This document shows, piece by piece, positions 4,450 to 59,070 of a stretch of 64,000 nt of DNA (the stretch's first letter is position 1; the number at the start of each line of letters is the position of its first letter). This DNA is from Tubulanus polymorphus (Eukaryota; Nemertea; Palaeonemertea; Tubulaniformes; Tubulanidae). Both the position numbers and the translations under genes were made by a program. The notes under the pieces were generated by a model. The model worked only from the letters and a program-made list of their open reading frames with translations. It ran no database searches and was not told the origin of the DNA. The stretch lies in NCBI RefSeq assembly GCF_964204645.1, contig NC_134033.1, positions 4,436,231-4,500,230 on the forward strand, given 5' to 3'.

Positions 4450-5024
4450 AACTCAATATCAGCTAATCGATTGTTCCCAAGATCAAAGACTACATTTTAT
4501 CGTGTAACTACATTACAACTAAACTGGAAAGTGAACATCTATGAAGAACAGTTGAAACTAACAGCGCTATCAGAAAACTGTGATCGAGCTGGTTTTTATA
4601 ATTTTGATGGTATAATTTCACAGCTAGACGCTATGGTCCGTATTGTCCTGGTTCATACTACGGTCGATCTGTCGTCAGCCTGATTACATCAGGTGGACCG
4701 GTTACTGTAGTAGCATACGCTTATTACTATAACAATCGGTTAACTGTTGGTTGTCCTAGCAGGTCATCTCTTGAATTTGCTCCTACTGATTGTGATGGTT
4801 ATGTTCTACAAGAAGAAGAACGTCAGATCAATATGACGTCACACTGTCTCGTGATTACACCTGAAAATCGACGCCATCGCTTGAAAAATATTCACATATT
4901 ATCAGAACACGAATATCAAATTGACCGATGTTTTCTCAAGATGACATTATTATGTGATCAGTTTCTGAGTTTGAGTAATCAGTTTCTTAATAACAGTCTT
5001 GTATTAAACTTCACAGTTAATGAG

Positions 5025-7397: not shown

Positions 7398-7837
7398 GTT
7401 AATTAGTTTGTATTCTGGCAGGAACCACTGATAGTTAAACTACGTTGTCAATGTCGGGGAGTGAAAAAAGCGCATAAGTTTTGGATTTGCCGGTTCCCGT
7501 CTCCCAGTTGCTACTAAAGATAAATGTGGACTCGTGCAGTCACCGAACTACCCGGGTTCGGCAGGAAGTACATCTAAATCTTTTTTCTACGAATTTGAAA
7601 AACCCGATACAACATAATATATTTCAATATTTCAGATTTATCGTCAAATCTATTGGATCAGTTTCATGTGAAACAAACAACGTGGATGCGAATGATCCGA
7701 TCATTTTGATACACAGCTGATAAAGTAATACCTCTTTCAAAATGGAAAACTGTTCAAATTTATAAGGACCCAACACAAAACTTTAATATGTGAAAATAAC
7801 GCGGTTCGTGGACTTAGTATAACTAGATTTATTCACG

Positions 7838-8103: not shown

Positions 8104-9201
8104 TTATTTTGAATAACACAGATAACTGATGAGTAATACTTGTTTTGCTTTTTTCCTGAAGCTGTCGTTCGTTGCGCAATAAACGAAGAAATTTACTGAT
8201 GAATCAAAAGCACTGAGCAGAATTCCAACTTTCCTCAGGACCATTAGTTCATCTCCGGATAAACTGTGGCGTATTCCTAACTTGATTCTGAAGAAATGTA
8301 ACAATCGCTGTACAGATGCCGGAATTTCGAACACAAAGTACAATAACACAATCAAGAGAACCATTTTTAATATTTTCAATTCAGCGGATGTGTTTTTACT
8401 TTTCTCACTGATCGCCGCTGAGTTAAATTGTTTCTTCCCATCTATTTTTCTAAATATCATGACTCCGAACAAAGTTAGATTTAACATTATTAGAATAATG
8501 AAAGGTAAGAGAACCGTCATGAAGATGTAGGTAATGAATGTGAAGTAATACCCATAATCATACCGATAATGAAAAGGTGTTCGAGTTGTTTGGCCACCAA
8601 AGGCTCCCAATGTAAATACACCTGGAACACAAGGATCGGTCGTCCTTCCGGGTAAACGAAGTGGAAAATAATGCGGCCAATGACAAACTGCTGAGAAAAA
8701 CGCGTTGAACAATGATAAGAATATTATTTGTTTTTTGTTCCAGAATCTTCTAAAATACAGCGGACTCGCGACGACCAAAAGTCTCTCAAAACTTACTATC
8801 ACAACCGCCCAGTTTCTAGCAGTTTGAAATGTAAAGAACAGCGGCATCGCCCATGTAATGATTTCGTGTCCAAAATACCAATCATCATAGTGCATAAGCA
8901 GTTTAGTTTTAGTGGTTTTGCTGAAATCGATGATAATAAGACGAAATGGGTAAAGTACGAATACTGACAACAGAAATAGTATTTCAAACCAGGCAAGAAT
9001 TATAATAGTTTGATAAGTGGTACGACCGATCTTTCTGAATACTACAATAGAAACAGAGTTCAGTATCACTCCCAGAACTGAAACCAACGAATATCCGAAA
9101 CGGTACAGATTGACACTGAACACATGGTTCCATCGTGTAGGTGGATGTACACAGTGAGGAGACTCAGCCATCGTCGATGTGAATTGTGATGTAAAATTCA
9201 T
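8104..9201 (-). CDS. Class A GPCR, FMRFamide-receptor-like
   Basis: A single-exon frame of 365 residues starts at ATG 9201. The N-terminus has the sequon NFT and no signal peptide. Seven hydrophobic segments are visible. TM1 contains LGVILNSVSIVV with the conserved Asn. The usual Asp of TM2 is replaced (LAWFEILFLL). TM3 ends SFERLLVVASP, an ERL in place of DRY. TM6 carries FEIPAS and TM7 carries SVNFFVY in place of NPxxY, followed by a basic helix 8. These departures are typical of the large FMRFamide-receptor-like expansions of lophotrochozoans. It is a plasma-membrane receptor, probably for a neuropeptide; the ligand is unknown. Relatives lie at 37791 and 59071. An AATAAA signal on this strand lies at 7833-7828. 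Confidence 0.9.
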   Translation of the reverse strand: MNFTSQFTSTMAESPHCVHPPTRWNHVFSVNLYRFGYSLVSVLGVILNSVSIVVFRKIGRTTYQTIIILAWFEILFLLSVFVLYPFRLIIIDFSKTTKTKLLMHYDDWYFGHEIITWAMPLFFTFQTARNWAVVIVSFERLLVVASPLYFRRFWNKKQIIFLSLFNAFFSAVCHWPHYFPLRLPGRTTDPCVPGVFTLGAFGGQTTRTPFHYRYDYGYYFTFITYIFMTVLLPFIILIMLNLTLFGVMIFRKIDGKKQFNSAAISEKSKNTSAELKILKMVLLIVLLYFVFEIPASVQRLLHFFRIKLGIRHSLSGDELMVLRKVGILLSAFDSSVNFFVYCATNDSFRKKAKQVLLISYLCYSK

Positions 9202-9560
9202 ATTTCAATAGCAGTAATCAGCTGGCAGTTTAATAGCGAGAGACACGTAGCCTCCCGTTATCTATACTCGTGTCATACATAACCTGCAATCATCTGCACG
9301 ACTGTATCGTATCGCTCATCTCCATCATGCAGTGCCAAAAATTACTTGCTGAAATACGTTTTATTCGATATCTCCGATGGAATATGTTTTTTGCGAAAAT
9401 AGCGGAACTCTATTAAACTACCAGAACAAGTCGTGGCTTTCCTCGACTGTTTGATAGGACAGTAATATTACTAGAGTTTGGAAAAGAAGGCGTAACTAGG
9501 TCATAACTAGGTGTCTAATGAAGACGGGACATGCATTTAGAAAAAGGGGACAATATATTC
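9202..9560. other. Intergenic, presumed 5' flank of minus-strand GPCR
   Basis: No gene is recognised. It presumably contains the promoter and 5' UTR of the receptor at 8104-9201, but no decisive core-promoter motif was found. Confidence 0.4.
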
Positions 9561-14117: not shown

Positions 14118-17100
14118 TTATTCGCTCGCTGTTTTGGAGGCTTTAGAGGTTTGACCCAGTTTGAATTCCGCTCGACACATATCGAACACTCGTTTGTTGA
14201 CGATAAAAGCCAAGAAAACCAGACAACCTTGAGACGAGTTCAACAAATTGAAGAAATACCAGAGATAATCGTTATTTACGAACGACGCTACGAACCCGAC
14301 CACCCACGTGACCCCAGTCACTACAGCCATTCGGTAGAAAATGAATGTGGTCGTTCTCATCTGTTTGGCGTTAGATGAAGAAGTGGACATCGCGGAAAAT
14401 GACCGGTGAATGCGGTAAACTGTAGCTACGAATAGAATCATACTGACCAGATCGATAATACCGATCGGTAGAACGAACGCCATCAATAGGGAGAAACTGG
14501 AACTAAACCAACAAGTAACGGGGCTTCCGTAAACCGCACCGGAGTACTGAGTGGTATCGGTGTTGTGTAGGACGATACAGGGTCCGACAATGAGGAATGG
14601 AGAAAACCAAACTGATAGTAGATAGTACAGTAACGTCTTAGGAGAATCGATCAGTTTACGAATAGTGGAAAATGTAATGAACATGTGAACAGAAACAGCG
14701 GCCATAGACGCGAAAACAACCATCCAAATATAGTGTTTAACAGCGGCCATCGACACGCATAGTAATCGATTATCAACGCCGATCAGGCTGGAAATATGAA
14801 GAGTTTGAGCCACGGCGAGAGTTATACAGAGATTGACGATGAGTTTACCGGGTAGAGTTCGCAGATCGGGAATATTCAAATAGATTACGACCGTTATCAC
14901 GAGACTGACGACGGACAGACAGCTACAGGTGAAGGTAATCAGGAAATCGTGATCGGAAAATAACGAACTGACCGTTATTTTAAATTTTGAATTGTTTCGT
15001 CGTCTGCAAACCATGGCTCCTGTACTAGAATACACTCGCACGCAGTCATTGATTTTAGTGGAACATTTACTCGATTTTAATATCTGCATTTTTCCGTCGT
15101 CTCTGGTAATTTGAAAAATTCTGTAATATTTAAAAGACGGGTTGGATTGGGCTAGAAATGAGTTACTTCCGGTTTGGGTCATATTGTTTTCTACGTCTGC
15201 CTCTGTATCGATGACGTCACAGCGAGTATTCTTAGTCAAACTCGTAGCCGACAACTCGTAACCGGAAATGGTCACCAGACTGCCATCATTGCCGAATTGA
15301 CACGTGATCATCGCCTCATATTCGCTCAAGATTGATTCCATAGTGACGTCACCGAGAAACTCTTCGTGATTGGTAAGCGTGAAGTCGCGTCTGTACAATG
15401 ACGATTCATTGCTTAAAGATGATAAACTTCCTATTTCTGAAATCTTTGATTTATGGACATCGCCGCAGACTTTCACTTTGAAATACATCAATTCAAACCC
15501 GAAGTTTTTCATAACAAATCGCTGAGTTTCGTTAAAAGTAATAAAGAAAGATAAATACACGCGTACGGATATTATAGGCCATTCGTTCTCAACAAGCCGA
15601 CAGACAGCGTTGTCTTCGTCGGTACCCAGGAGTCGGTATCCCCGTAAACAGCCGTATCCGCGACATCTACGCGTCTCCTGGTCAAATATTTCGTTTGTTT
15701 CCGAGCAAAGAAAGTCTTTCGGCGCCCACGAGATGACGGGCATTCCCGCAGTTCGAAATTCTACGCCGTTCGCGACACTGAAATCGAGTAAGATGTTCAA
15801 ACCGAATGTTTTTTGGCCGGTTAGATCATAGTTACAAACTAAGGTCGATTCGTTTAAAACGCTGTCACTCAGTTCACATTTCATACAGTAATAATTACGG
15901 TATGTTTTCACCCGTCCACCGACTACAGCTGATATCGGGTTAAAAACCCGTCTGCATTTAGACCTTAAGTCTTGATCTGCTGACTCGTTGCAGTGTGACG
16001 TCACGGGTAGGTTACTGCGCATGCACGGCTGTAAAACCATGCGAACTTTCCTGTGATGCGCGTAAGATAAACGACAATCTTCGGGCAGCCGAACCTTCGC
16101 GGTATCGTCGCTTAAAGACGCGTTTTGCACGCTCGTGATGACGTCATCGATTCGTGTGGTTTTAGTGCACTGCAGGACGAGACTAGCCGGTTCGTATTGA
16201 GTGTCGTTGAACCCGTGACACATCGCGCAATACATATTCTTAAAGGGAAGCCAGTCGTCGATGTAGACGGGAATCGTCGTAGCTAGATTACTGGACGGCG
16301 ATTCGCAATAGCGACGCATGTCTGAATTCAAGTCGAAATCACTCGGGCACCGACTGATCGCTATAAAACCTTTTGACTGATACGTCTCGATTCCGATTCC
16401 GTATATACAGTCGGTCCATTGAATTTGTTGTATCGTTTTGTTTCGCCTCAATTCGTCCACGTCGCTTCTCATGACGCACTTTCCAACCAGGTCACAACAG
16501 TTGTTAAACAGTCCGCAAGTACATAAATTCGCCAAACAACCCGTGACTGGACAAACTCGAACTAAATCTCCATCTTCATCTATTTGCTCCGATGCCACCT
16601 TGTAATCTCCGATCAATTGGTTTTTTATGTCGCCTCTTCCGGGAATTTTTCGACCAGGAATCCTACCTGCGTTACCCGTTATCCCAGTTCCGGGAATCTG
16701 TCTACTCGGCATTCCAGATTCGGGGAATCGTTGGGTCGCGATGAAATAATCTGAAATTATTACAGCAATTAGTTTTTTTTTCGATAAACCCTTCTTCCAT
16801 TTTTAGAACTTCCATTTTGCATTAGAAAATCTTAACCCCAGTAATCAAAAAGGCCTTAACGTACGTATAACCGTACGGTATAGCTTAGAATTCGATTAAC
16901 ATCGTTTACGTTTTTTTTACGTTTCGTTTACGTACATTTAGAACGGAAATCGATCGGCGTTTTGGAAAGAGTTTAAACGCGTACCGTACATCGTTGTATC
17001 GGTTTCAAACGCGTTCAAATCGCGTACTGTACAACGCGTTTCAATTGGAACGATAAACGACAACGCGACCCGTTAATTTTAATCTGTACCGTACGTTTTT

Positions 17101-18084: not shown

Positions 18085-18252
18085 GACATCTGGTTGGCAC
18101 TATTCATACACTATTTTCAATTGTCTTTTAATGCGGCCACATAAGATGTATAGATGCGCTCAGATTCAGATGTATAGACTCGTATCTGGGAGTATGTCGG
18201 GCTCGGGTAGAGCCGATCCTACCGAACTGGTTTTAGCTCGAAGGAGTTTCTT
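18085..18252 (+). pseudogene. Fragment of LDLa/LRR-type GPCR (TM5 and third loop)
   Basis: This matches 31290-31455 of the intact receptor, from GWHYSFTIF-like TM5 to the loop motif SGSGRADPTELVLARRS, with an internal stretch degraded. It stops within a few bases of a foldback element. No flanking receptor sequence remains. Confidence 0.85.
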
Positions 18253-19968: not shown

Positions 19969-22281
19969 ATGACTGAAGTTCTAAACAAATTTGCTGGAGT
20001 GTGGGTGAGTACTTTTTGAACGTTTGCCGATAAATTGTGATAACGTGTGATGATGGAACGGGTTGCTCTGAACAGACGATGGGGTTTATTATAATTGAAT
20101 TCAAATCGCCTATGAATCAAGCCGGGTGTAATAGATTACCACAATCAATCGTGAATTTTATGAGTTGGTTTATGAAGCCGATACACTGCGTTTGTATATG
20201 GACAATCATTGTATAACTGTTTGTGTTAGCTGCGCAGATCAGGGGATCTAGGTATGTTAAATTAATTTAGAGCACAATTTGGCGTATATAATTTAGCGTC
20301 TCTTATCGTCCAACATCCAGCAGCAGTCCGAACGATCCATCCACAGTTTTGTGGGATTGATTTGACTCTCAATCCGGTTCTACAAGTACAATGTGTGGGT
20401 TTGATGTGACTCTGGATCCATAGTTGTGCGGCTTTACATTGATTCTGAACCCAGTGCTGTGGGTGGAATTTGACTCTCGATCTAAATCGACATTTGCGGA
20501 TTGGTCTTATATGACTCTAAACTCAGTTCCCCAATTGTGTGGCTGTGTTGACTCGGAACCCAGTTGCACGGTTGAGTGTGTTTACTTTGACTGTGGACCA
20601 TAACATAAAATTCCTGGTATGCAAATTAGGGCACCAGAACGCCAGAATGCAAAAACGAAAAATGTCCGTTTTTTTCATAAAAGAAAATTCGACGTTTTTC
20701 ATTGTTATGGCGGGCTCGCCAAAACGGACTTTCATAGAAAAATTGACGTTTTTTTCGTTTTGGGGTACAGGCGCCCTCGTTTGTAACCAGGAATGTTACG
20801 TTTTGGCCCGAATCAGCCACATAGTAAACGTTTAAAACGTATATGCTTTTCTATTTCAGATGATGCAAAATGGACGTAATTCGGCTGAGGACCTAAAACT
20901 GCCGCTTGTGACGCCATCTGGTGATGAAACCGCGAACGGAAGCCGCGTAACGCGTTTCCTATCTTCGACGGCTCTAGTCAAAGTCATCGCTTTCAACTCC
21001 GTATTTCTAGGCGCGTTAGTGACTTCGGTAGTCATCCCGATTCTACCGGCGCTACTCGTCGACTTCGAAAAACAAGCGGCTCTGGCAAGCGGTGTCAACT
21101 CGACGACCGGAAGAGTGGCCGAATTTGAATACAACGGCCAATACCATCCGTGCGCGCATCGAAACGGAAAAACCGTCGAAAAAATAAGCTTTATATTTCT
21201 AGCGAAACCTTTCAGCGAAATGCTGACTAATCTAATCACCGGAAGAGTCGTCGATTCGTTCGGGTTTCGAATCCCATTATTACTCGGTTCGGCGTTGAGC
21301 ATCGCGTCCGTAATCGGGTTCACGTATGTCGACACGATCTTGCTGATGACCTTGATGCGGATAATAGAGGGCGTCGGCACCAGTTTGAGCGTCGTATCGT
21401 CGCTGGCTTTGGTCACGAGCGTTTTTAAAATGGACGACGAACGAACGAAAGCGATCAGTATCGGTTACATGGGTTGGTCAGCAGGTGTCGCTCTAGGTTA
21501 CCCGTTCGGTGCAGTGACGTACTATTTCTTCGGGCGCGACGTGCCGTTTTTGATGCTAGGGGCGCTGTCGATTATAGACGGTATTTTACGATTGGTCGTT
21601 CGCCCGCCTGTCAAGAAACCGGTGGCAGCCTCGACCAAATCTGCGATGGAATCGAAACAGAATCTGACGGAATTAATACGAAATTCGCACGTGATTCTGA
21701 TAGTGATTCTATGCTTCGCGATGTACACGATATGTGGCGCGTATTTGACCCTTGCGCCCGATTGGATGCTGCATGATTTGTGCGCAACCATGTGGCAGGT
21801 TGGCGTAATACTATTGATCGGCGCAGTTTTTCAAACGGCCATGAAATATTTCGTCGGTTGGTACGGAATTCGGGTCGGCCGTTGGGTGTGCGCCGTCGCG
21901 GGGTACCTCATACTCGTCGTAGGTCTATCAACCTATACGCTCCCGCCATATATATGGGCCCTGCTGGGTCCTGATCTCGCGATACGGATCGGCTACGCGG
22001 CCAATGCGTGTTCGCTGACGTCACTACTGGCTCTGGTTTGCGAACGTAATTTCCCAAGCCAACAAGGCTCGGCGTTCGGTATTTATAACGCTTTTACGAA
22101 TCTAGGTTTCGTCGTAGGGCCACTGATTAATATAGGCCTTTTACAGGTGGTAACTACGACTTGGTGTCTGAGGATGTTCGCCGGTATGTCACTGCTGTCG
22201 GCTTGTTTGGCCGTATTTCTCAAATTCGCGGAGGACGGCAACAATGATTCGGACGTCGAAGAATTAGTGGAGCCTGAATGA
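19969..22281 (+). CDS. SLC18-like vesicular amine-type MFS transporter
   Basis: Exon 1 (19969-20004, 12 codons) ends at donor GTGAGT. Exon 2 (20860-22281) follows acceptor CTATTTCAG in the same phase, giving 485 residues. Exon 2 also begins with ATG, so an internal start giving 473 residues is possible. There are about twelve membrane segments. TM1 has VVIPILPALL. The TM1-TM2 luminal loop carries one NST sequon. TM2 keeps FLAKPFSE with the conserved Lys, followed by the MFS signature GRVVDSFGFRIP, RIIEGVG in TM4, and GSAFGIYNAFTNLGFVVGP in TM11. This fits the vesicular monoamine/acetylcholine transporter family. By eye, acidic residues known to matter in vertebrate VMAT2 (Asp33, Asp400, Asp427) align with Gly, Ala and Asn, so substrate or coupling may differ. 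It is probably a vesicle-membrane transporter. Confidence 0.85.
20630..20835. mobile_element. Short TE-like repeat in SLC18 intron
   Basis: About 200 bp rich in AACGGAC and GACGTTTTT motifs in both orientations. It ends GGCCCGAATCAGCCACATAG, closely matching the end of the foldback element at 18264-19543 (GGCCCGAATCAGCCGCCATA). Probably a related short element lying just before exon 2. Confidence 0.55.
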
Positions 22282-24574: not shown

Positions 24575-27500
24575 ATGCAGCGAATGAAAGCGTTGTTCGT
24601 AGTTTTACTGATCGCTTGCGGAGACTGTATATTTACGCGGGCTGATCGCACAAACTCTGTCGAGGAAGCCGCGTCTGTTACAGTCAGTTCATCTTGTAAC
24701 AACACTCAATACTCCGTCGATTCTACGTCTGGTTACATCATTTCACCGAACTATCCGTCGTTAGTGCGCGGTGTTGAATGTCGTTGGTTCGTCAACAGCT
24801 CTTTACCGGGAAGTTTTCTCGTTCAAGTTTACTACGACATCGAGCCGTCGATATTCTGTAACGAAAACTATCTTCTCGTCGGTGAGTCCGACAACAAACT
24901 CTGCGCTACCGGAAGAAAACAACTAGATATCCGCAGTAACGGGTTGATTTCGTTGTTGTTTAGGAGTAACGTCGATGGAGCGCGAGGTAGTCGGGTTTAT
25001 ATCATATATCGTTTTGAAGAACAGAGTCGCTTGAAAATTGTACACACATGCTACAAACATGCAGTAAAAGAATTACCAACTCAAACAGGGTATGAATTCA
25101 TGATTTCTATCCGTCGATGTAAATTGTTGTTAGAATGGATCGGGATGCCAGACGGGTTTGCAATGAATTTAACGTTTATACATATTGATTTCAAATTAAG
25201 ACCAGGTGAGGATCCAATGAAAACTCGTCCTCAAATTTACGACAGATGGAACAGCACCAGTGATCCTATAGCTCTTATACGAGAACAAACCGGACATCCA
25301 CCTTCATCGTTTTATACTAAAACTAATAAAGCACGTATTGAGATCATTTCAAGTAGATCTCGGTTTAATTCGCAGTTACTCGTGCAAGTTTACAAAGTAT
25401 CAGATTGGAACATCTCTAACCCGTTAATTCAAGTCTATGATAAATCAGCACTGCTCACTACAATTGATGGAATACCACATATAGTAACTCAGTCTAAACA
25501 CTTATACTGCTGGTCTATCACAGTTGATGTTCTGCAGTACGTCGTCTTCAACTGGACACGTGATCTCGTCTCGTCACCAGGTGTCGTTGGTGTATATAAA
25601 CAGGAAGGGTTACGTATTGTGAGAACTGATATTTTACTCAGTTTGAACCATCTTAAAACTCTGAGTGTAAAATCAGACGGATTTCTCGCGATTCTGTGCG
25701 TTTTAATGACATCGGATTTTTTAAGATCGAACTTGAAAATAGAATTTGAAGAGAAATCTTTGACAATATCAGATATTATCGTCAACAAGCCAAGGATATG
25801 GGTACGTTCATTACAACCAGTTGTACTAATGCTTTGTATGATATAATTCTATGATTTTGAATATCATAATGTTGAATTTGACCAGTGAAATCTGAGATAA
25901 CTACGTTATGTGCTCCAACTTTTTCACATAATCCATGAGATAACCGGCAGATGAATACCATAGTAACAATTAACTCTTAATTGTCACTCTGTCAACTATC
26001 CACTTTCAGGGGCCGGTTTCACAAAGCGTAATAAACCCTTAATTATGATTGAATTACTAATCATGATTAAATTATCATGATTTAATCAAGTTAGGTGTTT
26101 CACAAAACGTAATTAACTTTAATTATAATTAAGTTAACTACAAAATTTAATCATCATTAGTTTATTATCAAAAACAAAAAGCTGCAGATATTATTCATGG
26201 AATTTGGTGTTTATTAATTGACGACGGCAATCCCTACACTTATTCAGTTTTTCAGATTGTTTGGCTCAAATAATTAGGATTTTTTGCCTTTTGTAAAAAA
26301 GGCATGTCAATACTCTAAATTCTATTGATTGTTTTCAAACGTCCTATGTCTTTTTGTCAGCACGACCACCACATACTTAGAAGTATTGAATTAATTGATT
26401 TTTTCCATACATATGATAGATTTCTGTCAGTAGAGTACATATCTATGGAGTTAGTGTTAAAAAGTGCTAATCACTGCTCGGAAATAAAAACCCCATTTAC
26501 GTACGAGGATTTTATTTTGCTGACTGGAGGTGAGTTTCTATTTAAAAACTTTTGAGACATCTTGCTAAGTTTTTCCACTGGTTCCTGAGACCTTTCAGAG
26601 CAATCTTTAACTCCCAAAGGAGTGAATTTCTCTTTTCCTCTAAACAAGGAAGGTTGTTGATGCTTGGAGAGCAAATGGCTGTCTAAAGTTCCGCCATTTT
26701 GATACAGTTAAATTGTAATTAAGTTGCCTAATTGTGTAATTAGTTAATTTTGTAATTAAACCCTTTCGTGAAACCGAATTTTAATCGTTATTAACTAATC
26801 ATGATTAAGGAAATTTAATCATGATTTAGGTCCTAATTATAATTGAAGTTAATTATGCTTTGTGAAACCGGCCCCTGGCATTTAGCCTTAGAAATACATG
26901 TTACTGCAGACTAATTATAATAATTAATCGGAGAATTGCAACACCTCAACTATTATCGATATTTTTTTCCATTTTAGGTAAGTTTAAAATTCTCGTTTTG
27001 TAAAAATGCAATGTTGTAATCGATTTTCTAATATTTCAGAATTATGTGAGGATAAAATCAATACCAGCTAATCTATTGTTCCCGAGATCAAAGAATACAT
27101 TTTATCGTGTAACTACATTACAACTAAACTGGAAAGTGAACATCTATGAAGACGGGTTGAAACTAACAGCGCTATCAGAAAACTGTGATCGAGCTGGTTT
27201 TTATATATTTGATGGTAGTAATTTCACAGCTAGACGCTATGGTCCGTATTGTCCTGGTACATTCTACGGTCGATCTGTCGTCAGCCTGATTACATCAGGT
27301 GGACCGGTTACTGTAGTAGCATACGCTTATTACTATAACAATCAGTTAACAGTTGGTAGCTCATCTCTTGAATTTGCTCCTATTGATTGTGACGGTTATG
27401 TTCTAGAGGAAGAACAACGTCAGATCAATATGACGTCACACTGTCTCGTGATTACACCTGAAAATCGACGCCTTCGCTTGAAAAATATTCACATATTATC

Positions 27501-30500
27501 AGAACACGAATATCAAATTGAGCGATGTTTTCTCAAGATGCCATTGTCATGTGATCAGTTTCTGAGTTTGAGGAATCAGTTTCTTAATAACAGTCTCGTA
27601 TTAAACACTGTCGATTTCGCAAGTGATGGGTTTGGATTCATGAGGTATGCACAATCGATTCAACTGCGTCGTAAATGTCTGGGAGTCAAAAAAGCTGCAA
27701 GTTTAAACGCTATCCCTAACCTTGAGATAGCTAAAGATAAATGTGGACTGGTGCAATCACCGCACTACCCGGGTACGGCAGGACGTATCGTAGCATCTAT
27801 ATCATATAAATTTGAAAACTCGATACAACTAAATACATTTCATTATTACTATTTTATTATCAAATTTATTGGATCAGTTTCATGCGGAACGAACAATGGA
27901 AGAGCAAATGATCCAATAATATCGAGGCAGTTTATACATGACGATTCATTCCGAGATGGAAAACTTTCTATTCCAACCCAACATGAAACTAAAATATGTG
28001 AAAATAACGCGGTTCGTGGACTTATATTTTATAGTTTAACAGATAATACTCTGCATTTTGAAGTAAATAATAAAATCCCAACCTTTCAAATACAATACAC
28101 TTTACACGAGTCGTTACCGATTAAACATTTCGATGATTTCTACTGTAAACAAGGATTTCTGGACTCCGGAATTTCTTGCATCAAATTCATCAGAGATGAA
28201 CGTCTGAATTGGGAGAACGCTGAAATATACTGTAGACAGAAGTACGCGGGACATTTACTCAGTATCAACTCAGAACAGGAAATGATTTCAATCAAAAGAT
28301 TATTCGCTACAGAACTTCTCCGAATGGCGTACTCATTAAAAGCGCTCATAATGATGATTGGATTAAAATGGCAGGTAAGACTAATGTTTACAAATATGAA
28401 TTAAAATAGTACGATTTTTAAAGAAGAAATAGTTATTTTCTTTTTTCACAAAACAGAATGATGGTTATTACGCGTGGACTGATGGTAAACCATTGAGCTA
28501 CACAGAGTGGTATAAACCTGTTATTAATGAAACGATCCCGGAAGTTATTCGAGGATTGATATCTCCGCTAAGAAAACAACCGATAGATGACGTCAATATG
28601 CCGTGTACAGCGATGATACTGAATAATCCTCGAGGATCAGCGAACTGGGTTCGATTCCCGTGTCAAATCGAGGAGACGCACACGACATTCATTTGTGAAA
28701 CAGAAAGAATCGATCTTAATGCATCTTCACAAAACGATACAACTGAAATAAAGTGGAAAAACATTGAACGATTTAACTCCACGTGTCTAAGAGGATGGAT
28801 TCGTATAGAAGCGCATTGCTATCAAATACTTACAGCCTGGCAAACGCTCCAATCTGAAAGTTTAACAATCGAAACAGCCAGAGAAATGTGTCTTACAATC
28901 GGCGGAGACATAGGTATAATAACATCTAATATTGAAATACAGTATTTGATAAATGTTTTCCACTTTCAGCATCAATATGGCGCTATACTGACTAATCATA
29001 CAAGCGGCAGAATTGTGGCAATACAACCAGTTGTAATTAGAGATTGGATAACATATTTTCAAACAGTGAAATGGTCAGTGACTGCCTTTGATAATGTGAC
29101 AGATGAAGCGCATTCCGTTCTATGTTCCTATGATGTAACTGGTGAGTTGGTTTCTGTAAGCGGTTGTCAATCGTGGCAGTTTGAATGTAACGATCAAAGA
29201 TGTATCAGCGACCATCGCGTATGTGATACCACACACGACTGTCAACACGGTGAAGATGAACTCGATTGTACGGATATCAATTTACACAGTCAGTTCCTCT
29301 GTAACGATGGACAGGTTATATCGATTAGCGGTTTCTGTGACTTTATGAGAGATTGCGTCGATGGCTCGGATGAGAACTCGTGCCATCATCCACCGTGCAT
29401 ATCTACGCAATATCGCTGTTCCAATCACCAATGTATCGATAGTTATAAACGATGTGACGGACTAGCAAACTGTAAAGACGGTTCCGATGAGATCGGATGC
29501 ACTGCCGAACTTTGTCAGGGGTTCTCGTGCGCGGACGGTGAATGTATTAGTTCTCAGTTGTATCGGGATGGTATCGTGGATTGTAGCGGAAGTCTCGAAG
29601 AAGACGAATTGGTCACTAATATGACAGTGAATCCCGAGGTTTACTGTAATAATGACAATCACTGTACGAGTCGTTTCACAGATCTGTGTAAGGAATCGGA
29701 TGAACAAAGATGTTCGTTCAATTCTCCGCGCTGTTATTCCCGACAAGAAAGGTGTATTTTAGAAAGGATGCCGATTGGTTTCCCGGTATGTAGAAATCTT
29801 GAACATATACTCGCGTGTAATGACTTCAAATGCGCGGCTGGTACTGTAAAATGTCCGGCATCTTACTGTATACCGATCAGACACGTTTGTGACGGTCGAT
29901 CCGATTGTCCTAATTCAGAAGATGAACGAAACTGCGAGACTTGGTCGTGTCCGGGAATGTTTAAATGTGGCCAGGAAAATCGATGTATTCCGCAATTTGA
30001 AGTTTGCGACGGTGTCGTAAATTGTAAACATAACTCGGATGACGAGTCATACTGTAAGGTCACGTGTCCTGAACGTTGTAATTGCCGGGGTCATTTCATC
30101 GATTGTGAAAACGCTCTTTTATCAGATATTACTGGATATATCATTGAATCAACCCGGGTTTTTATTTTGTCGAATAACCGAATCGTATTTAACGAGTCGA
30201 CGTTCAACTCTTTCATTTATCTTCGTTTTCTCGATATTTCGGGCAATAATTTGTCTTACATCGTTCCCAACGCGTTTTCTAATCTAAACAATCTATACAC
30301 ATTAGACCTTGCTCACAACCGCATAACTTCATTATCTGCTAATACATTCGCAGGTTTGATCGGTTTAAAAGAACTATTTCTTTTCGGCAATCCGCTGCAA
30401 CACTTAAAAGTCGGTAGTTTCCGAGGTCTGACATCACTTCCTGCCCTCGATCTTCACGGACTTTCTATATCGGTTCTCGGTGAAAACGTATTTAAAGGTT

Positions 30501-31684
30501 TATCCGCATTACAGTCGTTAAATATCAGCAGTAACAAAATTCATCACATTTCGAGCTTTGCTTTTTCTGGATTAGTTGGACTTGAAATTCTTGACCTCGT
30601 CAACAATTTTGGAGTAATATTCGTAGAAAGAAACGTTCTTGGCGATCTTACATCATTGAAATACCTCGCTTCGGATGCTTCCAAATTTTGCTGCATGGCA
30701 CCGAATGTTGACCGATGTCTTCCCGAAGCTGATCAATTTTCAACCTGCTCTGACCTGATGGGTAACACTGTACTGAGGGCAATCATCTGGATGATCGCAT
30801 CTTTCAGTTTTCTCGCCAACAGTATCGTTATTTTATTTCGATTTCAAGCTTTGCGGATGGAATTCTATGGAACACGTAACAAGTCTTCAGATATCCTCAT
30901 CATAAATATTGCCGGTTGTGATTTTCTGATGTCGGTCTATTTGTATTTGATCGCAGGAGCTGACCACGCGTTTCAAGGCGTTTATTATCTGAATTCTGAA
31001 ACCTGGACGGATAGCTCACTATGCCGTCTCGCCGGGGTTATTGTCACCGTTTCGTGCGAAGGTTCCTTGACTTTTCTCTTAATTCTAACACGTCAGAGAT
31101 ATTCAAATATCGTCAACCCGTTTTCTAGAAGTCCGATTATAACTCCGAAATACGTTATCGGTATTTGCTGCATTTGTTGGCTCGTTATAAGCACAGTTTC
31201 TATTCTACCACTGTCATCGTCGTCTTACTTCGGAGACAATTTTTACGGTACAACCGGAGTTTGTTTGCCTATGAATTTACTGACGATCGACGTCAATGGC
31301 TGGCACTATTCTTTCACTATTTTTGCCTTGTTTAATACGGCCATATTGGCTACGATAATGATGACGTACGCTCAGATGTATAGACTAGTATCTGGAAGTA
31401 GGTCGGGCTCGGGAAGAGCCGATCCTACCGAACTGGTTTTAGCTCGAAGGAGTTTAGTAATCAATCTTTGTAATCTATTCTGCTGGCTACCGATAATAAT
31501 CGTTCAGTTTTGCGCCGTATTTTCGGTCGAGATACCGAACCAGGTGGCTGCTTGGCTGACCGTTCTATTTTTACCGATCAACTCGTCTCTGAATCCGCTT
31601 CTTTATACAATACTAACTATCGATATGAAATCTATTCGTGAACGCAATAAACGACGACTAGGATTGACGACATCCGGTAAATAA
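24575..31684 (+). CDS. CUB-lectin-LDLa-LRR receptor GPCR (GRL101/LGR type C-like)
   Basis: Three coding exons: 24575-25801 (donor GTACGT), 27040-28374 (acceptor ATATTTCAG, donor GTAAGA) and 28457-31684 (acceptor ACAAAACAG). All junctions are phase 0, giving about 1,929 residues. Domains in order: signal peptide (1-23); CUB domain (about 38-150); further CUB-like sequence to about 405; a region of unknown type; another CUB (about 640-750); C-type lectin domain split by intron 2 (about 776-933, with DGKPLSYTEW); a second lectin-like domain (about 965-1080); six LDLa repeats (about 1091-1388, several with CDG...C.DGSDE); cysteine-capped leucine-rich repeats (about 1391-1590); the CC hinge; and a 7TM core (about 1629-1920). 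Core motifs are AGCDFLMSVYL, TRQRY and NSSLNPLLYT. The LDLa-LRR-7TM part resembles the snail receptor GRL101. It is a cell-surface receptor with unknown ligand. ATG 24575 is chosen because it is conserved in the decayed copy at 2879. Confidence 0.9.
26007..26877. mobile_element. TIR element in first intron of the large receptor
   Basis: The left end CAGGGGCCGGTTTCACAAAG is matched by its inverted form at 26858-26877. Imperfect AT-rich inverted sequence (TAATCATGATTAA-like) extends inward for over 100 bp on each side. No transposase is seen, only short frames. The corresponding intron of the decayed copy (4122-4400) lacks it. A clear target duplication was not found. It is a non-autonomous cut-and-paste type element of uncertain superfamily. 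Confidence 0.8.
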
Positions 31685-36535: not shown

Positions 36536-37790
36536 AGCCCGGGTATTTACTCAGAATACTGAGGTATGATAAATAGCCCTTGTATATATGTTATCTGCGC
36601 CCAGTTTCAGAGTTGTGAGTTAGAGTTAACTCTTGAGTTAAAATCAGTTCTTTTCAATGTTTTAACTGTAGAGTGAAATTGAACTCAGAACTGTAGAACT
36701 AGACGCTGAATACTGAGGTAGATTGAAAAGTGTTATATCAGCTCTGTGTTAGCTTATAGCTTCTTTCTTATCGTGTTCAACTTGAAAATAAAATTGTTAA
36801 TTGATACCCTGATTTATAAGATAGAAGTCACGACGACGGCTTGGGATTCGAGAGAAATATTACTCGCACTAAAATAAATCTCATGATTTATTGCGAAAAG
36901 CTAATCCTTCATTTAGAAGAATTCGCATTAGAATAAAACCGCTGAAGGAGAGTGGTTTCGACTCGGTGAAATGGTATATCGTTTGCGTTTTAATCCCGAG
37001 TTGACTTTCACTCTAAGTGCCTCGGAATCGAAATCTTTAAATACCGAAATAGATGCCGCAAATCGACGCTAGAAATCGTAACGGTATCTGGTTGTATTTC
37101 TATACATATTTTATCGCTGTGTTGAACTCATATTGATTGAACCCAGGGAAAAGTTGCTTAGCAGAGATCTTACGCATACGGTTCAAGAGGTTGCATTGCT
37201 ATGCGGCTACGTCACAGCACGTGACGACATGACCAATGCATTTCCGGTCGAATGACCAAAACTTACCCAATAGGTGATTGTTGCACCAAAATGATACATA
37301 CGATACTCAGCAACCTTCTAAATGGCCTTCCAAACGGGTATGTTTCGCCCGAAACTTACTTGCTTTTCATCCGACAAAATGGATATATTATTCTCTGGAG
37401 AAATGTTTTCTCTGGAGCCATGTGTTCGACCTTTAGGAAAGAAAAAACGCCGAACTTCTTCCCGAATTGTCGACCAGTTTTCACGTCGGTAATTGGAAAT
37501 AACAGCATCTTGACCCCCCCCCCCCTAACATATCGAGTCACGTAGTCCTTTAGTATTGAATCCTTCAAAATACTCACTATACATATGACTGAAGGCATTA
37601 TATATTTTTCATGAATTGTCGCCGCCTTTGTTATATTTCTATGTAAATTGATATTTTGTGCAAATGTTGAAATCCAAATCTGACCTAACACGAACAAAAC
37701 TATACCTTGAATAGTAATGGAAAGTTGGATAGAAAACCATTTACATTCTTCTAGCAGTAAATAGGTATATAATCATATTAGGCATTGCAG
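36536..37790. other. Spacer between upstream block and GPCR
   Basis: No gene is recognised. A C-homopolymer run lies near 37515. An acceptor-like GCATTGCAG sits directly before the GPCR start at 37791, so part of this stretch could be an intron in the 5' UTR. Confidence 0.4.
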
Positions 37791-38948
37791 ATGTATAGTC
37801 GCCACATTAAGACTAAATTCAATTTGTCAAATGAATTTGATTCGATCTTCCTGGGACACATTGCGATGGATTCATTTTATGTTGAAACGCTGAATCGAAA
37901 TGCAGTATTTGATGCCAAACCAGAAGAGACCAGAATGGCGAACAATAGATCGGTGACGGTATGGTTGTGTCCTGAACCGAAGTTTATACCGATAGAATAC
38001 GTTCGTTACCATGTGAAGGTTTACGGTATGGGTCCACTATGCGTTATCGGTATCATTCTGAACGTGATAACGGTTGTTGTATTAGGTCGTCTGCGTAAAG
38101 CGCGCCGTTCCGTTAATGCGTTATGGATCCTGGCTATCATCGAGACCGCGTTCTTAATAAACAAGCTGCCCAGGGCATCACTAAGATTTTTAGCGTTTCG
38201 CCTCATATACGGAAGACATGTTTTCGGTATACCTGGTAAACTGATTTTTCCACGCATGGATCGTGCATTATTGATACCGAACGGTACGCTGCACGCCACT
38301 CGTAACTGGGTAACCGTTTTAATTCAAATCGAACGCCTGTTTATCATAGCTTTTCCGTTAAAAGCCAGAATCGTTATCACACCGCGCCGTTTAATTATAT
38401 GTAGCGCATTAATAAGTTTTGTATTTTTACTGCTGACTATTTTTGCCTGGTTAGTCAACATACCGATACATATCACCACAGGGTGCATCAGTCTGAACTA
38501 CATGATACCGCATGAAAATAAATTTCCAGCGATCGTTAAACGTTATTCCTTCACTCTAGTACCGATTCTCGTGACTTTGCTATCGGATTTAATCATGTTA
38601 ATTTTTCTCGCCGTTAATACGAGGCGCCGGCGGTCACTACTGAACCAACCGTCGGCAGTTCCGCCCGGTGGTGAGGCGAAATCCAACTCCCAAACGAAAG
38701 CGACTCTCATTGTCATTTATGTTTGTTCGGCGTATGTGATATTAGAATTTCCCCAAATATTCATTGGAACAGCCAGAAACGTCGTCGGTGCAAATATCTG
38801 GCCGATGTTCTTTATTGTAGGGAGTTTTACTACTTCGTTAAATTCCTGTATAAACTTCCTAATATACGTCATACTTGATAGAAACTTCAGAAAAACGCTT
38901 TCCACAATGGCATCGGCTTGTTTAACGGAAAAGCCCATAACGCCATGA
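37791..38948 (+). CDS. Class A GPCR, FMRFamide-receptor-like
   Basis: A 385-residue frame from ATG 37791; later in-frame ATGs (37866, 37935) are possible starts because the first 48 residues look unlike a receptor N-terminus. WLCPEP precedes TM1, which has IGIILNVITVVVLG with the conserved Asn. TM3 ends IQIERLFIIAFPLKAR (ERL for DRY). The third loop is basic (NTRRRRS). TM6 has AYVILEFPQ and TM7 has SCINFLIYVI. It belongs with the receptors at 8104 and 59071 and is likely a neuropeptide receptor in the plasma membrane. AATAAA lies at 39059-39064. An upstream block shared with the 59 kb gene supports origin by segmental duplication. Confidence 0.88.
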   Translation: MYSRHIKTKFNLSNEFDSIFLGHIAMDSFYVETLNRNAVFDAKPEETRMANNRSVTVWLCPEPKFIPIEYVRYHVKVYGMGPLCVIGIILNVITVVVLGRLRKARRSVNALWILAIIETAFLINKLPRASLRFLAFRLIYGRHVFGIPGKLIFPRMDRALLIPNGTLHATRNWVTVLIQIERLFIIAFPLKARIVITPRRLIICSALISFVFLLLTIFAWLVNIPIHITTGCISLNYMIPHENKFPAIVKRYSFTLVPILVTLLSDLIMLIFLAVNTRRRRSLLNQPSAVPPGGEAKSNSQTKATLIVIYVCSAYVILEFPQIFIGTARNVVGANIWPMFFIVGSFTTSLNSCINFLIYVILDRNFRKTLSTMASACLTEKPITP

Positions 38949-39880: not shown

Positions 39881-40782
39881 GTACGTGCTCTTTTAATGGA
39901 TCTCATATCAAACCACGTTCGTGATAAATCACATATAATTCTATTTCGGTTGGAATACATTTTGATGACGTCAATTTCCTGTTTTACAAATTAAAACGGG
40001 AAAATACTAAAAGGTTCGATGAAATTTCCGATTGAAAAAACTTAGGTTTGATAGAAAATCTAATTACACAAAATTAGGTTTGAACATATTTCTATATTTC
40101 AAAAAATCATATAAAGTTGCTTTAAAACGTACTTCTGCGCGGGTAATGTTTTAGACAGTTTTATACAAAATATCGCGGCTACAATTCTACGATATAAATT
40201 ACTCGACATATCGAGTTCCTGTAAAATCATTTTGAAGCTTTTGTTCGACGAAAGTTTTCACCATACGATTGATATCGTCTAGATAATTTCTAGGTATTAA
40301 TATCACGTATACGTGAGTCATATCGAATAATCCGTATGATATAAATCTCACAATTTTTTTCCGTCATCATTATCACCACGCGTTTATAAAGTTCGAGGGC
40401 ACCGTTTTTATGAGTTAGTCGCGTCTGAGAAGGGCATTTAAAAGAATGTTAGTCAGTACACATCTTGTATCGCTCGTTCATTTCTAGCCCCCGTCAAGAT
40501 GATCGTTCCACCGTTATGCACGATGCATTTTATTCGATTATCCGCTGTATACACGAGTCCCGGAAATATTTCCGGTTCGTAACTCTAACTGCTACCAAAG
40601 AAATTGTCTAAAGTTTCCAAAGAAATCCGTTTTCCAGTCTTTTTCACGGCCGAAATTTGAACGCCGTATTTTGAAATCAGAAAATTTTACTTTACATCCC
40701 TATTTTTGCACTTTTCGACCGAATTGTCTCGCCGCATGTTTGTTCTGAAATATACTTTTCGAACCCGTGATCACCATTTTTC
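39881..40782. other. Intergenic, nothing recognised
   Basis: No frame or repeat with recognisable identity. Confidence 0.4.
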
Positions 40783-41290
40783 TGATGATCGACGTCAATG
40801 GCTGGCACTATTCATTCGCTTTTTTTGCCTTGTTTGATACGGCCATATTGGCTACGATAATAACGACGTACGCTCAGATGTATAGACTAGTATCTGGAAG
40901 TAGGTCGGGCTCGGGTAGAGCCGTTCCTACCGAACAGGTTTTAGCTCGAAGGAGTTTAGTAATCAATCTTTGTAATTTATTTTGCTGGCTACCGAAAATA
41001 ATCGTTCAGTTTTGCGCCGTATTTTCGGTCGAGATACCGAACCAGGTGGCCGCTTGTTATATAGAATATAAATTAGAATATTTCGCCATGAATGTTATCT
41101 ACGCTTACATTCTACCGTTATCTTTCATAATTCTATTGAATTCTGTTATAATAGTTCAGTTATTCAAGAAATCAAAAATTATTTCTTCTGAAAAGAAAAC
41201 TACAAAATCACAGAGTACAAAAAAAGCTGTTTAAGTCGCGTTTGCAGTATTTGCGCTACCATCCACGTCACTGTATTCCTACCAATCTCG
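40783..41290 (+). pseudogene. Chimeric GPCR pseudogene
   Basis: 40783-41057 is almost identical to TM5, third loop and TM6 of the large receptor (31283-31557), including SGSRSGSGRA and LCNLFCWLP. At 41058 the similarity ends. The frame then continues, without interruption, into a different receptor: a TM5-like YAYILPLSFIILLNSVIIV, a lysine-rich third loop (SSEKKTTKSQSTKK), a stop at 41232-41234, and beyond it VAFAVFALPST, the TM6 of the family seen at 33345-33936. No start or 5' receptor half is present. It is a fusion of two receptor fragments at a duplication breakpoint. Confidence 0.8.
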
Positions 41291-48665: not shown

Positions 48666-49769
48666 TCACCCTAGTACGTAAGGCGTATTACTACGCTTTT
48701 ACATTTCAGCTTGCGCATTAATTCCCCGATTTACTCCAAAAGTATATCTACACGTTGCACTACAATGTCGTATATCGGACTTGGGCCTGTACCCCTCACC
48801 CTGTTTAATCGAATATTCGGTTTAATCGCAGGGACTGTATGTAGTGAGTCTGACGAATTCTGAAAAGTGGCCACTTTCGGAAAAATTTATATCAGGCTCT
48901 GATTAGTGCTTAATTTTCAGGTAATACCTGGTAATGTTTGAAAAATTCCCATCGGATTAAAGAATAAAACGCATTTAAAAGTTAGAAATTCCGTTGTTTT
49001 AATTTTTGCCGCAAAAACCTACTACGATTTTTCTAGCAAGGTCTATGGTTTGTATGTTCATACTTCAATTATTACGTCAAATATGAGAAGATAAATTTAT
49101 AATACAAATATTTAAATCTTAGTGGACCCATTATTTGTTATAAATTTTCAATAATTGTTCGTATGAAATTATGATTAAATGTATTACCAAGTTTGTTCCC
49201 GGCGTTATTATGAAATTAACTTACATTACCGAGTTAGTAATGATAGACTGGGATATTTTGAGGGGACATATTTTCCAGGACATTTTTTCTGGGGACATTT
49301 TTCCCATTGACATATTTTCCAGGACATTTCTTTTCGGAAGATTTTACCGTATACCAAATCCAACATTTGGCTTCCGTCGGATTTCTCGGTAAATGAACCA
49401 ATCAGCGAACACAACAACAAATGCCTACTCGTCTGGAAGAAAATTGTCAGAATCATCATCATCGATATCGATTTGTTTAAACTTATAAAACAGATTATTA
49501 TCATATAAATGTATCAACTTCGAAATATCGATGATGCTTTGTTAAACGTACAAATGTTTCGAGCGTTGAGGAACAGGTAACTATTTCTCCATTGAATCCA
49601 TACGATGATTTACACACTTATAACGTAAAAGTATATAGAATTCAAGGTCATTCGAATTGACGCACGAAAGAAGTCTGCGAGGACGTTTGGGAAATCTATA
49701 TAACTTTCGAGATAGTTTCATAGTAATCAGCGAGCCGTAATTGAGAGTGAAGTCTGATTGGTCGACGCG
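48666..49769. other. Spacer upstream of a GPCR
   Basis: Contains a short GGACATATTTTCC/GGGACATTTTT-type repeat near 49262-49330. Otherwise nothing is recognised. Confidence 0.45.
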
Positions 49770-50714
49770 ATGGCTGCAACTTCAGTTCATCGGAACCGCA
49801 CGAATCCCACTAATATCTACACAAGCGTCGTACTCGCAGCGAGTACGATAAACGGAACCTATCTGTGGTGTTACCTCGTATTCGCCAGTCTTTGTTTCGT
49901 GCTCGGATTTGGCGGCAATCTCCTCATCTTAATAGTTATGCTGCGACGTAATCTATGGCGACGTTCATTCAGTCGCATGTTCGTTCAGCTGGCCGTCTGC
50001 GACACATTGGTTCTCATCGGTTACTTCGCCAAATATATCAACGTTATATCATATGCATTTTATGGAAAATTACTGGTCAAACCGTCGACGCGAATTCAAT
50101 GTATACTTTTTGAGTATTTTATATCGGTTGGACTTTCGAGCAGTCCGTGGACGCTGGTCCTCGTATCCGCCGAGCGAATGTGCGTCGTTTGTTTTCCGTT
50201 TAGAGGTCCTCGTTTCTGGAGCCCGAATACAGCGTCGAAACTCTGTTTCTCCGTAATCTGCTTCATAGCGCTGATCTACAGTTTTCTATTTGTAACTATT
50301 GACGTTAGTGATAACGGTTGTACCTTTAAAGATGTGCTCACATTTACCAAGCCTTTGCTGTCGTCGATTCTCATCTCTATCGGCCCGTGTATTTCGTTAG
50401 CGATCACGTCCGCCATAACTTCCATCACGTTATTCAACAAAAGGGGAGACTCAGGAACAACCCGAGCATCTAAATACTCAAACCAGGTAACCGTGTTGGT
50501 TCTGGTACTGTGCGTTTTCTTCATGGTTACGACATTCCCCGCCACTTTAGTGAGCCCTCACGTCGGGACTAATGCGGGATTAAAAAAAATTTTCACCGCC
50601 CTCACCGATATTCTAATGATAAACTTTTCGTTCAATCTCTACTTGTATCTGATGACGGGAAAAGAGATCAGAAACGAATTGCGGAGTTTGTGCTTCGCAA
50701 AGAAACCGTCGTGA
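49770..50714 (+). CDS. Class A peptide-type GPCR
   Basis: A single-exon 314-residue frame from ATG 49770 with two N-terminal sequons (NRT, NGT). TM1 has GFGGNLLILIVM (GN motif). TM2 has LAVCDTLVLIGY with the conserved Asp. TM3 ends LVSAERMCVVCFPF (ERM for DRY). TM6 has TFPATL and TM7 has INFSFNLYLYLMTGKEIRNEL. The short third loop and the AER motif suit neuropeptide receptors, and it belongs to the same broad group as the gene at 53967. The relics at 33345, 39640 and 47300 appear to be former members of this type. Ligand unknown; plasma membrane. Confidence 0.88.
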   Translation: MAATSVHRNRTNPTNIYTSVVLAASTINGTYLWCYLVFASLCFVLGFGGNLLILIVMLRRNLWRRSFSRMFVQLAVCDTLVLIGYFAKYINVISYAFYGKLLVKPSTRIQCILFEYFISVGLSSSPWTLVLVSAERMCVVCFPFRGPRFWSPNTASKLCFSVICFIALIYSFLFVTIDVSDNGCTFKDVLTFTKPLLSSILISIGPCISLAITSAITSITLFNKRGDSGTTRASKYSNQVTVLVLVLCVFFMVTTFPATLVSPHVGTNAGLKKIFTALTDILMINFSFNLYLYLMTGKEIRNELRSLCFAKKPS

Positions 50715-53700: not shown

Positions 53701-53966
53701 AACGGATCGAGAACCAAAAACTTGCATTTTCGAAAGCTGACTATTTCTATAAGAACGGGAATTTACATTGTGTGCTCTTTGCAGCGCCGTCATCGTAGAA
53801 TTTCTTATTGATTTCAAAACGGTGTATAAAAACTTTTTACCCAAGATCCGTCGTGAAGGAGCCGTGTCTGGATCGTGAATCACGCGAACAAGAAGAAAAC
53901 ACCAATCAATTAGTTGAACTTTGATGAGATATATTCACGAGTTAAAACAAATACGTCGATAAAGAA
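50715..53966. other. Intergenic, no convincing gene
   Basis: A minus-strand frame at 51493-51702 and another at 53629-53883 (followed by donor-like GTAAGAATC near 53645) could be isolated exons but resemble nothing known. The rest is AT-rich without recognisable content, apart from the trinucleotide run near 51150. Confidence 0.4.
51145..51225. repeat. CTG/TTG trinucleotide microsatellite
   Basis: Interrupted (TGC)n passing into (TGT)n over about 75 bp. Not in a convincing coding frame. Confidence 0.9.
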
Positions 53967-58985: not shown

Positions 58986-59070
58986 ATATATACATACAAG
59001 CATTCATAGAATGTGCATATTACGCATTGGTAGGTGTTCCATTTCATAGATTACAGGTTTCTCTCTCACG

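Follow-up and report, generated by a model that had tools for sequence, protein, structure and literature searches.

A large family of LGR type-C receptors with CUB and C-type-lectin-like modules in Tubulanus polymorphus, a possible recognition repertoire

The GRL101-like G-protein-coupled receptors (GPCRs) of the SudRes2 region of the snail Biomphalaria sudanica are the closest described counterparts of the receptor gene analysed here, which lies at positions 24575 to 31684 of a 64,000-nt stretch of the Tubulanus polymorphus genome (hereafter the window) and joins CUB, C-type lectin, LDLa, leucine-rich-repeat (LRR) and rhodopsin-type seven-transmembrane (7TM) regions in one predicted protein. 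In the available part of the SudRes2 paper, the region is associated with schistosome resistance and contains, within 440 kb, ten paralogues with all domains (C-type lectin, LDL, LRR and 7TM) and two missing one, with six more in the genome; its authors describe the N-terminal lectin domain as unique to the SudRes2 GRL101 genes (PMC12297450). An earlier note on the window had taken the presence of CUB and lectin domains in front of such a receptor to be undescribed; for the lectin part this does not hold, while 'cub' has 0 occurrences in the SudRes2 main text (PMC12297450). The two systems share the lectin domain N-terminal to the LDL, LRR and 7TM parts and the clustering of paralogues, but the SudRes2 receptors are described with one lectin domain and are far fewer, whereas the T. 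polymorphus family occupies at least 175 places in the genome and has, besides several CUB regions, a second lectin-like module that is exchangeable.

A CUB ahead of the 7TM is found in the adhesion GPCRs GPR126/ADGRG6 and BAI3, and relaxin receptor 1 (RXFP1) has a single LDLa and is not known to carry a CUB or lectin domain. Fold matches of the window CUBs include the CUB of GPR126 and the BAI3 CUB complex, but the window 7TM differs in being a 7tm_1 core; with 7tm_2 not listed by Pfam for exon 3 or the joined protein, an adhesion GPCR was rejected. The best solved GPCR match is RXFP1 (PDB 7tmw), whose LRR and 7TM parts align with the window protein. Multiple LDLa repeats, LRRs and a rhodopsin-type 7TM are also shared with Lymnaea stagnalis GRL101 and the type-C2 LGRs, for which the available parts of the sources give 12 LDLa repeats in Lymnaea and one GRL101 per ambulacrarian species studied (PMC8286064, PMC4079206), and describe no CUB or lectin part ('c-type lectin' occurs 0 times in PMC8286064 and 'cub' once, in no available passage that presents it as a domain). 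In the openly accessible literature we found no receptor combining CUB, lectin, LDLa, LRR and 7TM, no GRL101 family this large and no module swapping of this kind. The kind of receptor is known; the extended ectodomain, the family scale and the module exchange set this variant apart. We put at about 0.6 the probability that this large LGR type-C family, its ectodomain extended by CUB and C-type-lectin-like modules, serves as a recognition repertoire. Read directly from the sequence are the architecture, the family with its conserved scaffold, the signal of recombination and the cassette-like character of the second lectin module; the family's use is most likely in recognition, immune or chemosensory.

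Three exons on the forward strand, the strand of all domains located below, make up the gene, from the ATG at 24575 to the stop at 31682–31684. Exon 1 (24575–25801, residues 1–409) contains the start, a putative signal peptide recognised by inspection, CUB1, CUB2 and a third region in an open frame leading to a GT donor; exon 2 (27040–28374, residues 410–854) contains a variable region, a CUB and the first half of the first C-type lectin domain (CTLD1); and exon 3 (28457–31684) contains the second half of CTLD1, a lectin-like module, the LDLa array, the LRRs, a hinge, the 7TM and the stop. Both introns (intron 1, 25802–27039, 1,238 bp, GTACGT..CAG; intron 2, 28375–28456, 82 bp, GTAAGA..CAG) are GT-AG and phase 0, and the spliced frame is 1,929 aa long. 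The splice sites and the joined frame bear out the coordinates and the length of about 1,929 residues that the earlier note had given for three exons joining in phase.

Splicing of exon 2 to exon 3 is supported most strongly by CTLD1, which spans intron 2 and passes the Pfam cut-off only when joined: Lectin_C scores 14.5 bits on exon 2 alone and 27.8 bits on the joined segment of exons 2 and 3, against a cut-off of 22.6, and the joined segments of all three tested paralogues also pass. Separate mRNAs for exons 1 and 2 are unlikely because all 39 gene models have an in-frame stop in intron 1, which is only 79–93 bp long at nine loci and follows the sole exon with a signal-like start. Read past its donor, the exon 1 frame meets a stop after 14 further codons, and the exon 3 frame has no Met ahead of the lectin half. 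For intron 2 an in-frame stop is missing in 5 of the 39 models, the frame there being open even unspliced, and the donor GTAAGA is present in all 20 members of the C9 clade, the clade of genes from contigs C9 and C22 that includes the window gene. As the scripts that placed the paralogue splice sites took phase-0 sites only, the phase of the paralogue introns adds no independent evidence; for the window gene itself, candidate sites were listed separately. CTLD1 lying across intron 2, the stops in intron 1 and its shortness elsewhere make it unlikely that the CUB/lectin exons and the LDLa-7TM exon belong to two mRNAs, the outcome that the earlier note had set against its single receptor. Of the 40 loci fetched, 39 repeat the three-exon order, which points to an architecture that is more than chance.

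Intron 1 is longer in the window gene than at the other modelled loci (79–853 bp), which may be accounted for by an insert resembling a miniature inverted-repeat transposable element at 26007–26877 (no strand assigned), with 21-bp perfect inverted ends. The same intron contains, at 26965–26985, a site resembling a zero-length exon, in which a polypyrimidine stretch precedes TTTTAG followed directly by GTAAGT; this is a possible recursive splice site.

The CUB regions were located by two routes. CUB1 (24695–25024, residues 41–150) was matched by the Pfam CUB profile, which stays below its cut-off on the window exon 1 (E 0.014, 16.2 bits against 21.4) and matches 26 of 27 family members at E ≤ 1 (best E 3.5e-7); other Pfam families gave weak matches in up to 6 of the 27 (best E 0.036), which we took as chance. 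CUB2 (25025–25411, residues 151–279), which is variable among paralogues, and the exon-2 CUB (27691–28113, residues 627–767), the most variable of the CUBs, were matched through the better parts of low-confidence AlphaFold (AF2) models, the former to CUBs of Neto2, neuropilin and PCPE-1 and the latter to those of Kremen, MASP and GPR126, both at Z 8–9. VIA-align locates these matches at residues 151–279 and at exon-2 residues 218–358, with unrelated rows reaching up to Z 7. By our reading of the rows, all 17 fold matches at E ≤ 0.001 for exon 1 and nine of ten for exon 2 are CUB-containing entries, some of them presumably so, with TM-scores that are all low (≤ 0.3 where E ≤ 0.001) and with unrelated proteins in the lower rows. 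The window protein therefore likely holds at least three CUB regions, CUB1 from Pfam and two from fold matches; residues 280–409 and 410–626 have no assigned fold.

CTLD1 is encoded at 28135–28374 (residues 775–854) and, beyond intron 2, at 28457–28702 (residues 855–936), the latter half being highly conserved. It is followed by a linker and the second lectin-like module (28703–29143, approximately residues 937–1083), which is lectin-like by inspection only, Lectin_C having matched none of three segments tested (962–1082). Of the two C-type lectin domains named in the earlier note, the first has Pfam support. When the whole 1,929-aa protein was the Pfam query, neither Lectin_C nor CUB was listed, which we put down to the HMMER filters. 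EPN/QPD and WND are the sugar-site motifs of Ca-dependent C-type lectins. Neither was recognisable in CTLD1 in 19 aligned rows, where QPI/QPL/QPV/QPM and NW(V/I)R(F/Y)PC are seen instead. A sugar-binding C-type lectin was ruled against on this ground, and the glycan- or lipoprotein-specific capture suggested earlier finds no support.

The remainder of exon 3 encodes the LDLa array (29144–30067, residues 1084–1391), with six repeats by Pfam and cysteine-rich stretches, the Pfam-defined LRRs (30068–30694, residues 1392–1600) and a rhodopsin-type 7TM core (30761–31624, residues 1623–1910). Pfam places LDLa (six stretches), LRR_8 (three stretches) and 7tm_1 over the cut-off whether the query is exon 3 alone or the joined protein, whose domain search had been proposed as a check. 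Searched alone against PDB chains, the 7TM scores 147.5 bits with RXFP1 and 66.8 with the next, LHCGR; with the exon-3 profile, RXFP1 is again the best GPCR chain, LRP2 chains scoring above it through their LDLa repeats. By inspection, the 7TM of the window gene carries CWLP and NPLLY, and RQRY at the DRY position, with the Arg retained. An LRR ectodomain adjoining the 7TM, a trait of the LGR type-C receptors, is present, as are multiple LDLa repeats ahead of the LRRs, a trait of type C2 (GRL101). Because its 7TM is nearest to RXFP1, we assign the predicted receptor to the LGR type-C kind, which includes GRL101. Pfam, the fold matches and the RXFP1 score agree with the earlier proposal of one CUB, C-type lectin, LDLa, LRR and 7TM protein of the GRL101/relaxin-receptor kind.

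Beyond what a single window can reveal, the gene belongs to a family that varies in its modules and counts at least 175 loci. In the 267.8-Mb genome (77 contigs) from which the window comes, searches found at least 43 matches to exon 3, 102 to exon 1 and 95 to exon 2, and at least 150 each to fragments of exon 1 (121 aa) and of the 7TM (120 aa). With exon-1 queries taken from two other clades, 20 and 5 further places came to light, giving at least 175 distinct exon-1 places, mostly clustered: 67 on contig C9, 54 on C6, 31 on C12, 5 on C5, 4 each on C10 and C22, 3 each on C4 and C8, 2 on C11, and 1 each on C3 and C32. The five places on the small contigs C22 and C32 could be alternative haplotypes. 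The stop-to-stop frame is at least 405 aa at 158 of the 175 listed exon-1 places and below 400 aa at 17, a long exon-1 frame not in itself showing that the whole gene is intact. A same-strand exon-1 place lies 3–12 kb upstream of 117 of the 150 listed 7TM places, in 114 cases at 4–7 kb (median 4,966 bp). The strand control gave 0 pairs on the wrong strand, and a control in the wrong direction gave 86 of 150, which reflects the tandem arrangement of the genes; because tandem genes inflate the latter, only the strand control and the tight 4–7 kb spacing support the pairing.

Among the 40 fetched loci, the 39 with all three exons in order include 37 with an uninterrupted joined frame, although 13 of these frames are cut off where the fetched sequence stops and three (L019, L020 and L021) begin inside exon 1. 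L028, with exon 1 only, was left out of all three-exon analyses, and L017, with a broken exon 3, and L022, for which no in-phase donor was found, were left out of those needing a full model. The exon-3 tree (39 rows) resolves chromosome-related clades, among them a 20-row C9/C22 clade (support 100/100) that includes the window gene as well as L004. The window gene is one intact-looking member of a large, mostly clustered family. On C6, a block of at least four family genes at 19.82–19.85 Mb is repeated at 20.05–20.08 Mb with an offset of 232,299–232,300 bp and equal scores, and reflects either a recent duplication of the segment or a duplicate in the assembly.

Variation among close copies was analysed in the 20 members of the C9 clade (the window gene, L001–L007 and L029–L040) by diversity, PHI-type and sliding-distance tests. 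Nonsynonymous diversity per 40-column window is high in CUB2 (0.05–0.11), the exon-2 CUB (0.08–0.17), the second lectin-like module (0.10–0.12) and at the exon 1/2 junction (0.16 at 398–437), and low in CUB1 (0.005–0.05), CTLD1 (0.007–0.04), the LDLa repeats (0.005–0.03), the LRRs (0.02–0.05) and the 7TM (0.008–0.05). Synonymous diversity ranges from 0.01 to 0.34 along the gene, an unevenness which suggests that parts have been exchanged or homogenised. The PHI-type test on 496 two-state sites gave a z of −21.5, a strong signal of recombination, compared with −2.2 to 1.4 in ten recombination-free simulations that used the inferred tree and hand-set substitution parameters. The nearest member also switches between modules, each gene having 4 to 10 different nearest members over 11 modules, though the switches are partly noise, the copies being close.

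The second lectin-like module looks like an exchangeable cassette. In the window gene this module differs by 0.05 of its bases from L004 and by at least 0.328 from any of the remaining 18 members. In a scan of 20-residue windows, the median distance of the window gene to these 18 is 0.02–0.07 before residue 932, rises to 0.25–0.61 at 932–1083, is 0.13 in the scan step crossing the border and falls to 0.02–0.03 past residue 1088, while the distance to L004 is 0 to 0.12 throughout. In the module tree, the C6 genes L012 and L013 form a group with the window gene and L004 (100/97), apart from the remaining 18 genes of C9 and C22; two more C6 genes, L010 and L011, carry another type of second module. 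No intron lies at the borders of this cassette (approximately residues 932 and 1083). The module may have moved between clusters on different chromosomes, or old types may have been retained in both; as the borders are sharp, transfer is the simpler reading.

As a recognition repertoire, the family could work as follows. The variable CUB and lectin-like modules would bind varied external ligands, such as microbial, prey or conspecific molecules, and the more constant CTLD1-LDLa-LRR part would pass binding on to the 7TM. In RXFP1, the LDLa/LRR ectodomain relays binding to the 7TM, and it is this likeness that we invoke for the relay step. The copies would share one kind of G-protein output, because their intracellular loops are nearly identical, and new specificities would arise through tandem duplication and the moving of modules among copies. 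For the biological role, immune recognition is our first choice and chemosensation our second.

The surroundings of the gene in the window include further traces of the family. Broken copies of exons 1 and 2 with shifted frames lie at 2879–4109, 4453–5009 and 7407–7815, the last approximately 41–45% identical, and isolated 7TM-exon fragments, 63–91% identical, are scattered at 2163–2336, 18089–18250 and 40779–41054. Long single-exon frames matching 7tm_1 at or over the cut-off occur at 8104–9204 (reverse strand), 49758–50714 and 53946–55061, one matching 7tm_2 at 14118–16802 (reverse strand), and two that are GPCR-like in look, with no Pfam match over the cut-off, at 37782–38948 and 59050–59655. 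A single-exon major facilitator transporter frame lies at 20836–22281 (forward strand; MFS_1, E 7.2e-40).

Several observations weigh against a diversified recognition repertoire of CUB- and lectin-bearing receptors. The ratio of nonsynonymous to synonymous diversity exceeds 1 in just 3 of 49 windows, and we do not claim positive or diversifying selection; dN/dS above 1 is confined in the C9 clade to the N-terminal stretch and the linker. Shuffling is not free, the pairwise distances of module e2_B, the exon-2 CUB, the LRRs and the 7TM correlating at 0.34–0.71. Among the listed places, 33 of 150 7TM places and 57 of 175 exon-1 places have no partner. The number of CUB domains is uncertain, and the AlphaFold models of exons 1 and 2, built on 27-row alignments, have mean pLDDT values of 52 and 56, which is low confidence. 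In SudRes2, according to the available part of the paper, the validated and top variants sit in a neighbouring non-GRL101 gene, Zn-RING-IAP (PMC12297450). Finally, the intronless GPCR neighbours would suit a sensory role, and two of these frames, while matching 7tm_1 best, also pass the cut-off of the nematode chemoreceptor models Srsx/Srx or Srx/Srw.

These neighbours, together with the size and clustering of the family, favour the strongest rival, in which environmental or conspecific chemicals are sensed in sensory cells that express one or few receptors each. A GRL101-like receptor is also over-expressed in the sensory tentacles of the crown-of-thorns starfish relative to its tube feet, though not exclusively, in the available part of the source (PMC6267866). 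We regard a chemosensory repertoire as possible but rather unlikely, as ectodomains with such large CUB and lectin parts would suit protein or glycan ligands over small odorants.

CUB and lectin modules serve in cell recognition, and the module exchange resembles that of recognition loci, so the variable modules might instead mediate allorecognition or sperm-egg binding, with the 7TM as output. Gamete or self/non-self recognition is nevertheless a distinctly unlikely account, given the GPCR output and a family that would be unusually large for such a role. More doubtful again is a set of ordinary relaxin/insulin-like peptide receptors, duplicated without any new recognition function: the 7TM and LRRs are closest to RXFP1 among GPCR chains, and GRL101 has been proposed to have an insulin-like ligand, in the part of the source available (PMC8286064), but at least 175 places and the exchange of outer modules are hard to square with one hormone. 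Two separate genes, a secreted CUB protein from exon 1 (or exons 1–2) and a GPCR from exon 3, would fit the stop 14 codons beyond the exon 1 donor but are highly improbable, since CTLD1 requires exons 2 and 3, exon 3 offers no Met before the lectin half, and the exons are collinear at 39 of 40 loci with an intron 1 of only 79–93 bp at nine.

Returning to the recognition repertoire, we suggest tentatively, at somewhat less than even odds, that a hormone-receptor-type GPCR has been turned into a germline-diversified repertoire of well over 100 loci, in which CUB2, the exon-2 CUB and the second lectin-like module are swapped as cassettes without exon boundaries, even across chromosomes, while the signalling core and the relay domains stay nearly constant, as a GPCR analogue of multigene immune receptors. 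If true, this would be among the largest multidomain GPCR families known to us, and CUB/lectin-type recognition would be tied directly to G-protein signalling. With a related, smaller cluster lying in the parasite-resistance region of a disease-vector snail, as the available part of that paper describes it (PMC12297450), the family could serve to test lectin-LGRs as immune receptors and the origin of their specificity.

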